64,000 bases of DNA from Vibrio tubiashii ATCC 19109 (lineage in GTDB: Bacteria; Pseudomonadota; Gammaproteobacteria; Enterobacterales; Vibrionaceae), in contig NZ_CP009354.1 in assembly GCF_000772105.1 (NCBI RefSeq), forward strand, positions 1,674,001-1,738,000, given 5' to 3'. Shown piece by piece: positions 7,053 to 10,661 of this stretch. The notes beneath the pieces are model-generated. The model was given only the letters and a program-made list of their open reading frames with translations, had not been told where the DNA came from and did no database searches. The translations under genes and the position numbers were made by a program. The stretch's first letter is position 1. Every line of letters starts with the position of its first letter.

Positions 7053-7495
7053 GAGGCAACTTGAAGAGACAAAGAAAGGAAGTTTTCATCGCTTTCAGTC
7101 ACCTTGTAACCAAGAGATTTGTAAAACCTTACCGCTGACTCGTTTCTAGTAAAGCTTGATAAGGTTACGTGACTACGCCCTTGCTCTAGCGCTATTTCGT
7201 GAACCATATTCATTACCCTGCCACCCAATTTCTGATTTTGAAATTCTGGAAACACAATGAGTAAATGTACATGAAGTGCATCGTCGTAAGGCTTGAAACA
7301 TAGCATTCCTACTCTCGTGTTATTGAGATAAGCCCAGTGAAACCAATGCGGCTCGTAGTCACTTTTTAAGCGATTGACCTGAAACTCATCACACCAACCA
7401 AAGACAGCATCAACATGCGAATAAAGTCCTTGTTTCACAACAGAAAACAGACTTTCAAACTCATCACTTTCTATTTGTACTAGTTGAATATCCAT
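7049..7495 (-). CDS. GNAT-family N-acetyltransferase
   Basis: The 148-residue protein carries LLIVFPEFQNQKLGGRVMNMVHEIAL, where QNQKLGGR is the Q/R-x-x-G-x-G/A acetyl-CoA loop of GNATs, and SSFTRNESAVRFYKSLGYKVTE, the typical C-terminal block ending in GY. The N-terminal half (SHVDAVFGWCDEFQVNRLKSDY...HWFHW) resembles YafP/ElaA-like branches. Substrate unknown. The ATG of MDIQLVQI is preferred (GAGG just upstream), because the earlier ATG is part of the attC core GTTATGA. Confidence 0.88.
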   Translation of the reverse strand: MDIQLVQIESDEFESLFSVVKQGLYSHVDAVFGWCDEFQVNRLKSDYEPHWFHWAYLNNTRVGMLCFKPYDDALHVHLLIVFPEFQNQKLGGRVMNMVHEIALEQGRSHVTLSSFTRNESAVRFYKSLGYKVTESDENFLSLSLQVAS

Positions 7496-7502
7496 ATGCC
7501 TC

Positions 7503-7621
7503 ATAACGCCCTGTTAAGGGGTGAACAACGCCTCCACCCAAACCTAAAGCATTGTGCCATAAACACTAAATTTGAAGTAGAATCAAAAGTGCCGAGCGTT
7601 GTGAATCCCTCTTAAATTGCT
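7503..7621 (-). repeat. attC site interrupted by IS110-family element
   Basis: Left end TAACGCCCTGTTAAGGGG and a stem arm GCGTTGTGAATCCCTCTTAAATTGCT are intact, but the final TGTTATG lies 1.2 kb away, at 8808-8814, beyond the inserted element. Joining 7621 to 8808 restores a normal site end AATTGCTTGTTATGCG. Confidence 0.85.
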
Positions 7622-7649
7622 TGTATGGATAATAAGCTCTCCAATCGGG

Positions 7650-7815
7650 TAAAGTGAGACCCAGACTTTAGCTGCAACTAAAGTTCTTCTATCTGATAGT
7701 TCGATTAAATGATGGCTCCTCTATCGAGAGACCGATAACAAGTTCGAACGTCAGATAGAACTCCAAGCACCACACTCGAATAGTCTTCTGGGTCTCGAGC
7801 CCGCATTTGCAAGCA
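7650..7815 (+). ncRNA. predicted bridge RNA of the IS110-family element
   Basis: The leader is rich in stems: a perfect hairpin ACTTTAG/CTAAAGT at 7665-7684; a long stem AGTTCTTCTATCTGA (7682-7696) with TCAGATAGAACT (7751-7762); inside it GTTCGA/TCGAAC and the apical CTCTATCGAGAG. The internal loop of this stem holds ATGGCT (7712-7717) on one side and ATAACAAG (7735-7742) on the other. ATAACAAG is exactly complementary to CTTGTTAT of the attC target, and ATGGCT differs by one base from ATTGCT left of the junction. Further on, ATAGTCT (7780-7786) repeats the right end of the element (8799-8805), as a donor guide should. This is the layout known for IS621-type bridge RNAs; the ends are approximate. 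Confidence 0.65.
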
Positions 7816-7830
7816 AGAGTTAAGCTTATT

Positions 7831-8787
7831 ATGAATACAAACACACTTCAAAACATTAATGTCGGCGTTGATACTGGCAAATCACAATTAGATATTTATA
7901 TCCGTCCGCTCGACATTTACTTCACCGTTCCTAACAATGACAAAGGCATTAAAGAAGCCGTCAGAGCTATCGCTAAACACCAACCTCAACGTGTCGTGAT
8001 TGAAGCTACTGGACGATTAGAAATGCCCTTCATCCTTGCTTGTGACCAAGCAAAGCTACCCTATGTCATCGCAAACCCTTTGAGAATAAAAAGGTTCGCT
8101 GGTGCTATTGGACAAAGAGCTAAGAACGACCGTTTAGACGCCGCGCTCATTGCCCACTATGCTGAAAAAGTTCAGCCTGACTTAACCGAGCTAAAAGCCG
8201 AAAATATCCGATTAATGAGTGACTTAGTATCAAGGCGAAATCAGTTACTCTCCATACAGACCATGGAAAGAAACCGACTACAAATATTGCCAAAGAACAT
8301 CGCCTCAACCATTACGCCCATCTTAACCGCTCTTAAAAATCAAATTGAAAAAGTAGAAGCCAAAATCTCAAAGCTCATCGATATCTCACCTGAATATCAG
8401 ACTAAGAATGAGATACTTCAAAGCATGCCTGGAGTCGGTAAAATACTGGCCGCATCCATCATCAGTAACGTCCCCGAACTTGGTTACATCACCAATAAAC
8501 AAGCCTCTAGCTTGATTGGTGTAGCCCCCATCGTTAGAGAAAGTGGTCGTTACAAAGGAAAGCGCATAATACAAGGAGGTCGGACTCAAGTTAGAACCGT
8601 TATGTATATGGCAATGATGTCTGCCATCCAATGTAACCCTGTTTTTAAGACTACATATGAACGATTACTTGCGGCAGGAAAACCCAAAAAAGTAGCCATA
8701 GTTGCCTGCATGAGAAAGATGGTTGTGATCTTAAACTCGATGCTCAGAGACGGTGTAATGTGGGATAACAATAGCGCCAAAAATTAA
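7831..8787 (+). CDS. IS110-family transposase (bridge-RNA-type recombinase)
   Basis: The 318-residue protein has the N-terminal RuvC-like DEDD domain of IS110 transposases: D14 in NVGVDTGKSQLD, E58 in VVIEATG, and D100/D103 in RAKNDRLDA. The C-terminal Tnp domain (transposase_20) follows, with LQSMPGVGKILAASIISNVPEL, LIGVAPIVRESGRYKGKR and GGRTQVRTVMYMA, in which a conserved Ser is the predicted nucleophile. Length is normal and the frame is open, so it is probably active. I use the ATG of MNTNTLQN, since the upstream extension is the structured leader. It is the only gene of the window's first 24 kb transcribed on the plus strand with strong support. Confidence 0.95.
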   Translation: MNTNTLQNINVGVDTGKSQLDIYIRPLDIYFTVPNNDKGIKEAVRAIAKHQPQRVVIEATGRLEMPFILACDQAKLPYVIANPLRIKRFAGAIGQRAKNDRLDAALIAHYAEKVQPDLTELKAENIRLMSDLVSRRNQLLSIQTMERNRLQILPKNIASTITPILTALKNQIEKVEAKISKLIDISPEYQTKNEILQSMPGVGKILAASIISNVPELGYITNKQASSLIGVAPIVRESGRYKGKRIIQGGRTQVRTVMYMAMMSAIQCNPVFKTTYERLLAAGKPKKVAIVACMRKMVVILNSMLRDGVMWDNNSAKN

Positions 8788-8827
8788 CTATTGACGCCAT
8801 AGTCTCTTGTTATGCGATTTTCACAAC

Positions 8828-9250
8828 TTACTCATACAAGTACATTTCATCTTCTACGTCAGACAAAAACTCTGTTAATTCCCACTCAAAGCCAGCTTTG
8901 TCGAAAAAATACGCCCTTTTTCGATATGCCTCTTCGGGAGCAAAAATACCTCTACGATAGCCTTGTTCAATCAGCCGGCTCTCTATAGCTTCAAGATCAT
9001 CCACAACCAAGCCAATATGGTTTAGACCGTAGTTTTTATACGTTTTTTGAAAATTTTGGGGAACAAGTGAGTCTAGATGAGGCTCTTGAAGTGCAAAATA
9101 GCTTTGCTTGTTGCCCACATGAACCCAACGATGTCTATCTGAAGTTTTAACATCTTTTCGTACATTAAAGTCCGGAGCTACAATAACTAAAAATGCCAAT
9201 GCAGCGTCAATATCTGGAACTGTAATATTTAAATGCTCGATCCTTGTCAT
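8828..9250 (-). CDS. VOC-family (glyoxalase-fold) protein
   Basis: Two beta-alpha-beta-beta-beta units are visible: RIEHLNITVPDIDAALAFL at the start and GLNHIGLVVDDLEAIESRLIEQGYRRG in the second half, followed by KRAYFFDKAGFEWELTEFLSD. The usual metal positions are H (EHLNI), H (NHIGL) and E (WELTEF), so the protein is a plausible metal-dependent lyase, dioxygenase or resistance protein; the substrate is unknown. I start at the ATG of MTRIEHL (AGGA about 11 bases upstream); a TTG 8 codons earlier is possible. Its attC is the one split by the IS110-family element. Confidence 0.85.
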   Translation of the reverse strand: MTRIEHLNITVPDIDAALAFLVIVAPDFNVRKDVKTSDRHRWVHVGNKQSYFALQEPHLDSLVPQNFQKTYKNYGLNHIGLVVDDLEAIESRLIEQGYRRGIFAPEEAYRKRAYFFDKAGFEWELTEFLSDVEDEMYLYE

Positions 9251-9350
9251 ATTCAAATATATCCTTTTTCTCAATGAGCTAAAGTATCAACTCAAAGCAA
9301 CCTAACACCTCAACTTAACTTGAGGTCAAGCTAAAATTTACTCCATCGCA

Positions 9351-9471
9351 TAACGCCCTGTTAAGGTGTGAGCAACACAATACCAAAGCCGCTGCATACC
9401 ACCTTAAACACTAAACGCAACGCATATTGAAAATGCCACGCGTTGCGAATCACTCTTAAACAGTTTGTTAA
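9351..9471 (-). repeat. attC site
   Basis: TAACGCCCTGTTAAGGTGTGAGCAAC at the left and CCACGCGTTGCGAATCACTC...CAGTTTGTTA at the right on the plus strand; arms CAACGC/GCGTTG pair. It belongs to the GTTAAGG-type subfamily common in this array. Confidence 0.93.
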
Positions 9472-10661
9472 ATTGCGGTATCCACCGATTTTAAACTCGA
9501 TGTATCAAAAAATTTCGAGTTGGAATTTTTGAACTCTTTAACTAATGGAGACATATAAAAGTGAGTTCCATCGGAAGCAATTTCACCTTGAGTATTGTTA
9601 AACAAAAGAATACTTGTTAAATGTCTTTGTTTGAAAATATTCCTTATTTTATTTTCAATTGATCGATTACCTTCAAAAAAAGAGAATACTTGACTATTCG
9701 ATATTTCTACAGATATACATGATGCTCTTGTAGATGGGAGTTGCTCTTTTGCTGCTCTTTTACAAACATTTTCAAACTCACGCTGTAATGACCCTTTAAC
9801 ATGAGTGGTGATAATTAAGCAAAACCGCCCACTATTTCCATTTGGGGATGAAGCGATACGACCTACCTCTACGCCATGATTTTTAATCGGTAAGTCTAAA
9901 TGACTATCTACATCACTTATATTTGCAACGTCATCATAAATCTGGCGATGGACTTTTATTTTACAATCTGATTCTTCACTAGGACTATGTAAAAGCTTTA
10001 TTATCTCTGTCACAAACTCCTCTTTAGTTGTTTTATTTTTTGGCACTCCCTGCTCAATCTCAATACTGTAGACTGTTACTTGATTATCAATGTTGCACAC
10101 TAAGCCATGATCTTGACTCAATATTGCTTTATATATATCACTTGCATCCTCACCTGAAACATATAACCCCTTGTCGTATGAAAAAGACTTACATTCCAAC
10201 TGGATGTGTTCGTTATCGTTTGTTTTTATTAAGAAGTCATATGTGTCCCCACTAATATCATTGTCCTTTATTTCTATCTCATGCCCTTGATTAGTGAGGT
10301 AAAAGCACATAAACAGCTCATAATTAATTGCTCGCATATCATTAGGTTGAAAGAAAGCAGATTGAAATCTTTTCAGGATTTGATTTTTATTATCTTTACC
10401 TAACGAACTATAGATATATAAAAATGCATTACATGTAGACATTGCTTCTGCAACAATTCCATGCTCATAATTATCTTTCAGCAAATCCCCCCTTGTCTCA
10501 TATAGGTGCAATCCATAAACAAGTGAATTGTTCATTAGCGTTGGTAATGAAGGAGATTTTCCTCCACTGATTATATTAGAGTATGACTTCACCCATGGTT
10601 TATCAGGTAGAACTTTCAACATATTTTCATATATATGCTTGTAATTTTTCTGTTTGGACAT
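9468..10661 (-). CDS. hypothetical protein with PD-(D/E)XK nuclease-like core
   Basis: This is the largest cassette gene (397 residues). I recognise no named family, but the middle shows a plausible restriction-endonuclease-like fold: a helix with E115 (RAINYELFMCFYLTNQGHEIEI), D142 in GDTYDFLIKT, then a strand with E156-x-K158 (HIQLECKSF). The E...D...ExK spacing and the surrounding strand pattern are those of PD-(D/E)XK nucleases. The flanks are charged and soluble, with no membrane segment. The base composition is clearly more AT-rich than neighbouring genes, which suggests recent transfer. A nuclease in a single mobile cassette is a reasonable candidate for phage or plasmid defence, but that is inference. 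Confidence 0.6.
   Translation of the reverse strand: MSKQKNYKHIYENMLKVLPDKPWVKSYSNIISGGKSPSLPTLMNNSLVYGLHLYETRGDLLKDNYEHGIVAEAMSTCNAFLYIYSSLGKDNKNQILKRFQSAFFQPNDMRAINYELFMCFYLTNQGHEIEIKDNDISGDTYDFLIKTNDNEHIQLECKSFSYDKGLYVSGEDASDIYKAILSQDHGLVCNIDNQVTVYSIEIEQGVPKNKTTKEEFVTEIIKLLHSPSEESDCKIKVHRQIYDDVANISDVDSHLDLPIKNHGVEVGRIASSPNGNSGRFCLIITTHVKGSLQREFENVCKRAAKEQLPSTRASCISVEISNSQVFSFFEGNRSIENKIRNIFKQRHLTSILLFNNTQGEIASDGTHFYMSPLVKEFKNSNSKFFDTSSLKSVDTAI

Follow-up and report, generated by a model that had tools for sequence, protein, structure and literature searches.

A predicted bridge RNA aimed at attC 3′ ends in an IS110-group element of Vibrio tubiashii

Introduction

What places an insertion sequence exactly in the end of an integron attC site? 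The question is raised by an IS110-family element in a 64,000-nucleotide stretch of Vibrio tubiashii ATCC 19109 (contig NZ_CP009354.1, positions 1,674,001 to 1,738,000 of the forward strand; this whole stretch is called the window below). An earlier note, made from the letters of the DNA alone, had proposed that the 5′ leader of the element forms a bridge RNA programmed for attC. Our analysis supports that proposal in the main, through covariation of guides with flanks, the fold of the leader and the insertions of relatives in attCs. Comparison of sequences establishes the position of the element, its clean insertion, a conserved leader fold and the covariation of its guides with both target and donor. 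We regard it as very probable that this is a bridge-RNA-guided element of the IS110 group, working as IS621 does and aimed at attC 3′ ends: a parasite of integrons with its right guide fixed on the common GTTA box and its left guide variable.

The insertion site

The window element is located between an attC on its left that matches R1, a Vibrio attC model trained on 14 other attCs of the window, and the GTTATGC box of that same attC on its right, which we take to be the R′ box. Insertion in an attC end, as first read from the letters, is borne out by the R1 match (Table 1) and by two other genomes in which the junction is uninterrupted. When the two flanks of the window copy are joined, all 178 bases align with one continuous stretch of G222 at 92%, the right side being the same cassette start and the left side a related attC; at the junction, G222 has CTCTTAAATTGTTTGTTATGCGATTTTCAC, versus CTCTTAAATTGCT, the element and TGTTATGCGATTTTCAC in the window. 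In G150, the joined flanks match at 87%. The comparison with G222 reveals no duplication outside the core, and the end of the element, previously set at 8815, has to be moved to that given in Table 1.

A second copy in the same genome, on another contig, is 100% identical as printed (679.7 versus 682.5 bits) and likewise lies directly after an attC (R1, 101.1 bits), 12 kb from the genome's single gene above the integron-integrase family cut-off. That gene is on a different contig from the attC series of the window, where 28 attC-model matches, all on the + strand, fall between 1479 and 23997 (E up to 0.05, some weak).

Covariation of the left target guide with flanking DNA

Relatives of the element allow the guides to be compared with the DNA next to them. 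A contig scan gave 40 loci. In the window's genus, 60 of 227 genomes have the transposase at E ≤ 1e-60, as do 63 of 296 drawn from its family and 29 of 394 drawn from its order at E ≤ 1e-90; these genome sets overlap. A loose leader pattern matched 149 of 160 loci, some of them spuriously. A stricter parse yielded 149 leader copies, of which 127 were non-redundant, 113 had a left flank and 112 of these were free of N. Left flanks were accepted only if the left end resembled TTGTATGG, and for this reason decayed left ends are absent from the flank set.

When the guide strand was slid along the left flank in 102 unique guide–flank pairs, offsets 2 (z 5.2) and 3 (z 10.6) were the only ones at which own flanks matched better than permuted ones, and the nine other offsets gave no signal (z between −2.5 and 0.7). 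The signal places the left target guide (LTG) at 7705–7713. The earlier note had chosen ATGGCT (7712–7717), an alignment that corresponds to offset 6 (z −1.3); those letters lie mostly in the conserved apical hairpin, GGCT being part of the helix 7714–7721/7726–7733, and the candidate was dropped. The check that the note had proposed, whether loop bases of relatives covary with their flanks, comes out in its favor for the LTG. In the 32 guides without TTRAAYG, the match averages 5.47 of 8 positions with the own flank versus 3.51 with permuted flanks (0/5000 as high). Examples, guide and flank, are TATCCTTAT with TATCCTTATTG (L011), CATTGCTT with CATTGCTTTG (L021), GAATGCC with GAATGCCTTG (L020) and TTGATGCAT with TTGATGCATTTG (L145).

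Because shared ancestry had to be guarded against, a swap test was made among closest relatives, in 42 disjoint pairs of 0.63–0.97 identity, with at least 3 of the 8 guide positions different within each pair. The own flank was the better match in 37 pairs, equal in four and worse in one (sign test, 1.4e-10). On a quick tree of 85 elements, which has IS621 as its lone outgroup, excludes rows of fewer than 290 residues and repeated protein–guide pairs, and leaves 29 of 83 inner branches poorly supported, the 43 guide 8-mers need at least 52 changes. One guide, ATCCTTAT, is common to L011, L031 and L100, which occupy two separate places on the tree. L012 (with the same insertion in L148) has a redirected guide, TTCATGGC, a left flank TTCATGACC and a right flank, TTGCATGG, that holds no GTTA box. 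At G063:C1:2031424-2034303, two elements of different lineages (L048 and L121; 87% and 75% identical to the window element) are separated by 1 kb and have separate left flanks.

The guide could also resemble the flank if recombination after insertion had copied flank DNA into the leader. Such exchange does appear to occur, because attC sequence is joined directly to the guide strand in L006/L050 and in L076; these copies lack the element's left end, as would result from recombination between flank and guide at their short identity. As a general explanation it is highly improbable, since copies with one and the same guide are found in different sites that each match it (L145, L146 and L149; L110 to L116). 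Flank copying may still contribute to the renewal of guides.

attC targets and host arrays

By the model, 65 of 113 insertions lie directly after an attC match, a count that uses all 198 R1 match rows outside the window. A duplex-energy test for attC palindromes proved powerless (6 of the 65 model-positive sites at the 2% level), and its controls came from attC-bearing loci. An anchored arm test used in its place recovers 34 of the 65 at p ≤ 0.05 and is passed at the same level by 16 of 47 testable model-negative insertions. In the resulting 81 attC-like insertions, the guide matches the flank at 5.89 of 8 positions versus 3.21 in a background of 1218 TTGTT[AG] sites, and 47 of the 81 reach p ≤ 0.05.

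That most classified insertions are in attCs (the 65 of 113) would also be expected if the folded attC hairpin were recognized, perhaps jointly with the integrase of the integron, and resemblance to the guide were secondary. This seems very unlikely. It is linear sequence that matches, and in the swap test the match changes along with the guide. Moreover, the 31 insertions not classified as attC, such as L072, L112 and L066, still match their guides (5.58 of 8 versus 3.14; 18 at p ≤ 0.05, or 17 with another random background), some of them presumably being attCs because the arm test is insensitive. Since the match persists in these 31, the guide rather than the hairpin seems, from these comparisons, to decide the insertion site. 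The same loop bases in unrelated sequences, a pattern that the earlier note had named as telling against its proposal, were for the most part not encountered, as insertions outside recognized attCs still match the guide.

Genomes were also searched for arrays of sites fitting the guides of their own elements (four patterns in 14 genomes, the patterns having been picked after the guides were known). Elements of one genus, g11, carry the guide TTGATGCAT. Three g11 genomes contain its site 70, 40 and 68 times, four from the window's genus do not contain it, and the seven others together have it once; one copy of the g11 element (L144) lies instead in an attC of Vibrio type within its genome (118.2 bits). 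For ATCCTTAT, no host array was seen, with 1 match in G442 and 11 in G271, whose elements bear another guide. The broad Vibrio pattern gave control counts about equally high in several genomes, and the CTGATGC pattern was weak, with 4 matches in G414, two of them less than 3 kb from its element.

Right target guide, core and donor guides

The right target guide (RTG) and left donor guide (LDG) proposed at the outset both stood, the former through its exact complementarity to the right junction (Table 1) and the latter through a comparison of relatives, in which the LDG and right-end 7-mers are identical in 97 of 102 elements versus 34% in permutations. The 7-mers are ATAGTCG (40), ATAGTCT (37), ATACTCG (10), ATAGTCA (8) and ATAGCCC (2). 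In L056, L075, L076, L083 and L154, LDG and right end differ by one base, and these are perhaps recombinant elements. Among relatives the RTG is nearly constant, as is its target, the GTTA box. The base that comes after AACAA in the RTG tracks the base before the right-end TTG (G/C in 46, A/T in 54, with 2 exceptions in 102). At the left junction, the RTG form and the first core base agree only loosely (C 28/45; T 29/48).

These patterns fit a core of CT or TT whose left copy comes from the target and whose right copy comes from the donor, as a top-strand cut 3′ of the core, the one made by IS621, would give. A CT core had been proposed for the window element; it is upheld there. In the family, however, both CT and TT occur, and the first core base of the left junction varies with the target. 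A TTG core, the letters common to both junctions, was dropped in the light of the junction comparison and the IS621 papers. In IS621, TT, AT and GT cores also support recombination (PMC11208158). An extra T in the junction T-run, relative to relatives, is present at the left junction of L004 and the right junctions of L102 and L011.

The right donor guide (RDG) is found at the counterpart of the IS621 RDG, whose pairing has been described (PMC11208158). In IS621, each right guide is followed by two bases that, once strands have been exchanged, pair with the other DNA (PMC11208158). Here, the base after the CAA of the RDG covaries with the first core base of the target (0.545 versus 0.441, 0/5000, n = 110; unique combinations, 0.535 versus 0.363, 10/5000, n = 43). 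The covariation is weaker for the second base (1/5000; unique, 220/5000) and not clear for the third (123/5000; unique, 1187/5000). In 66 of 91 elements, versus 38% in permutations, donor position 7 is the complement of the base that follows the RTG, a signal that may reflect ancestry because it follows two large lineages.

Transposase and group membership

The transposase matches NCBIfam NF033542 at 202.7 bits (cut-off 140), which settles the IS110-family identity given in the earlier note, and Pfam DEDD_Tnp_IS110 and Transposase_20 at 64.6 and 71.3 bits, both above cut-off. Among solved structures, sequence matches were obtained to ISCro4 and IS621 only. Alignment with IS621 has 90 of 314 residues identical and sets the five residues listed in Table 1 against IS621 D11, E60, D102, D105 and S241, named as its catalytic residues (PMC11208158).

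Could the element be a plain member of the known IS1111 group that inserts in attC? ISKpn4, ISPst6 and ISPa21 resemble it in their RNA-guided insertion in one attC end (PMC11187229, PMC11616780), ISKpn4 and ISPst6 by means of a seekRNA (PMC11187229). This possibility is extremely improbable. The long non-coding stretch is upstream of the ATG (209 bp, versus 20 bp after the stop), and the guides, at 7705–7813, precede the ATG at 7831, so the downstream guide RNA of the IS1111-attC elements is lacking. The first match of the RNA is to the bottom strand, whereas IS1111 members have the stretch downstream and the guides in the other order (PMC11187229). By inspection, the donor is flanked by CCATA/TATGG only, with no subterminal inverted repeat of 7–17 bp such as IS1111 members carry (PMC11208160). 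Placement in the IS110 group rather than the IS1111 group, favored from the start, agrees with the upstream non-coding end and the missing repeat.

Fold of the leader

The long, nested 5′ leader that had been noticed by eye is supported by energy and by covariation. The single-sequence fold has −64.4 kcal/mol (z −4.9). Across the 24 diverse leaders from which model R2 was built, the window leader among them, 98.1% of proposed-pair cells are standard and 13 pairs are changed on both sides, 12 of these in the target stem and first hairpin. None of 500 shuffles reaches any of five fold measures, and pairing falls to 25–45% when the partner is slid by 1–3 columns. In the target-loop apical hairpin, pairs are invariant in 6 of 7 cases, and in the donor loop 94.8–99% of cells are paired, mostly invariantly. 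R2 matches the window only once. On the IS621 locus its best match is the IS621 leader, in the correct place; the LDG and RDG then fall on their IS621 counterparts, so that the covariance model does not put these guides elsewhere, but the match is weak (8.4 bits, E 0.043). Rfam gave no match in the whole window at gathering scores and none in 7400–9500 at E up to 1.

An alternative outer stem pairs the 5′-proximal GAGACCC with GGGTCTC of the donor apical strand. It is incompatible with the donor apical hairpin, which makes an RNA switch possible.

Table 1. Positions of the element, its insertion site, its transposase and the predicted RNA features in the window
Feature	Position	Strand	Basis or remark
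IS110-group element	7622-8807	+	1186 bp, one core copy included; empty site in G222 and G150
attC as far as the insertion	7500-7629	+	model R1, 98.7 bits; final match letters are the element's left end
Core CT, target copy, left junction	7620-7621	+	junction comparison
Core CT, donor copy, right junction	8806-8807	+	follows RTG form in 100/102 elements
GTTATGC box of attC, separated from its stem by the element	8809-8815	+	sequence
Predicted bridge RNA	7654-7833	+	model R2, 194.2 bits; transposase ATG is its last codon
First hairpin	7665-7684	+	5/7 pairs changed on both sides
Target stem enclosing target loop	7691-7756 (7691-7702 with 7746-7756)	+	7/11 pairs changed on both sides
LTG TTAAATGAT	7705-7713	+	offset scan and swap test
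Apical hairpin of target loop	7714-7733 (7714-7721 with 7726-7733)	+	helix 3
RTG ATAACAAG	7735-7742	+	exact complement of CTTGTTAT, 8806-8813
Donor loop	7765-7827	+	stems 7765-7768/7824-7827 and 7774-7777/7817-7820; apical hairpin 7790-7793/7799-7802
LDG ATAGTCT	7780-7786	+	equals right-end letters 8799-8805
RDG CATTTGCAAG	7804-7813	+	IS621 has CCGTATTTGCAAGG in the same place
CAAGCAA, RDG end and handshake bases	7810-7816	+	exact complement of target TTGCTTG, 7617-7623
Alternative outer stem	7655-7663 with 7789-7797	+	98.2% of cells paired; present in single-sequence fold
Transposase, 318 residues	7831-8787	+	IS621-like catalytic residues D14, E58, D100, D103, S238
-35-like TTGACG	8791-8796	+	in the circle, 17 bp from GATAAT at 7628-7633

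Discussion

In the model that we favor, the 5′ leader would give a bridge RNA whose target loop pairs with both halves of the attC 3′ end. In the variable, TTAAAYG-type half, the LTG would pair with the lower strand; over the core and the widespread GTTA box, the RTG would pair with the upper one. The partners of the donor loop would be the joined ends of a circular element, the LDG with the right end and the RDG with the left end, and the DEDD/Ser recombinase would then exchange strands at the CT or TT core. Expression of the RNA, the circular intermediate, catalysis and loss of attC function are inferred. At the circle junction, the spacing of TTGACG and GATAAT suggests a promoter. Such an element would be a natural recombinase that reads integron sites.

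Several observations weigh against this model. Of the 9 positions of the window element's LTG, TTAAATGAT, only 6 agree with the flank of that copy, TTAAATTGC; the three mismatches are those nearest the core. Among relatives, the guide–flank match occurs in two registers, and 7 of 112 insertions match the guide at no more than 3 of 8 positions (L026, L073, L096, L094, L120, L133 and L159). The pairs of the donor stem hardly vary, and this stem is therefore hardly tested by covariation. The RNA is only weakly like that of IS621 by the model, at the 8.4 bits given above. Finally, a host array was seen for only one guide of the four patterns tried.

How does the element compare with known systems? 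It is like IS621 in its transposase fold, catalytic residues, guide order LTG-RTG-LDG-RDG, nearly identical RDG and CT core. It differs in that IS621 targets repetitive extragenic palindromic (REP) sequences, whereas here there are attC targets, lineages with CT and TT cores and an extra conserved outer stem. In the IS1111-attC elements, the guide RNA is downstream and the guide order reversed (PMC11187229), in contrast to the upstream RNA here. An IS110-type element with its seekRNA upstream and a guide order opposite to that of the IS1111 group has been described (PMC11187229), and bridge RNAs have been predicted throughout the IS110 family (PMC11208160). Natural redirection is likewise known in IS1111-group and IS110-type elements (PMC11187229). 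ISEc21 and ISMch6, of the IS110 family, also have an upstream RNA, and their target changes naturally with the bottom-strand guide; that is one case with three altered bases (PMC11187229), whereas here there are 43 guide 8-mers with at least 52 changes over 85 elements. IS110 elements are reported in Shewanella integrons, none of them interrupting attC (PMC9229058). Our search of the accessible literature, with subscription papers and ISfinder outside it, found no IS110-group lineage that targets attC. With attC targeting and natural redirection both known in relatives, the element described here is a new variant.

A broader idea, about which our doubts slightly outweigh our confidence, is that a marine gammaproteobacterial clade of IS110 elements lives as an integron parasite. 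Its RTG would be held on the common GTTA box, its LTG and the handshake bases of the donor loop would track the local attC family, and the alternative pairing 7655–7663/7789–7797 would perhaps switch the RNA between idle and bridging states.

For integrons, the insertion parts the attC stem from its R′ box, and cassettes may therefore be locked in place. A comparable effect on cassettes has been suggested for ISPa21 of the IS1111 group (PMC11616780). If the model is right, these elements would form an extensive natural series of recombinases, with RNA guides that have been re-aimed many times within one narrow class of targets. They would also provide a data set on how far bridge RNAs tolerate reprogramming, in registers, wobble, core change and handshake bases, and would represent a second RNA-guided attack on integrons, alongside that of the IS1111-attC elements.
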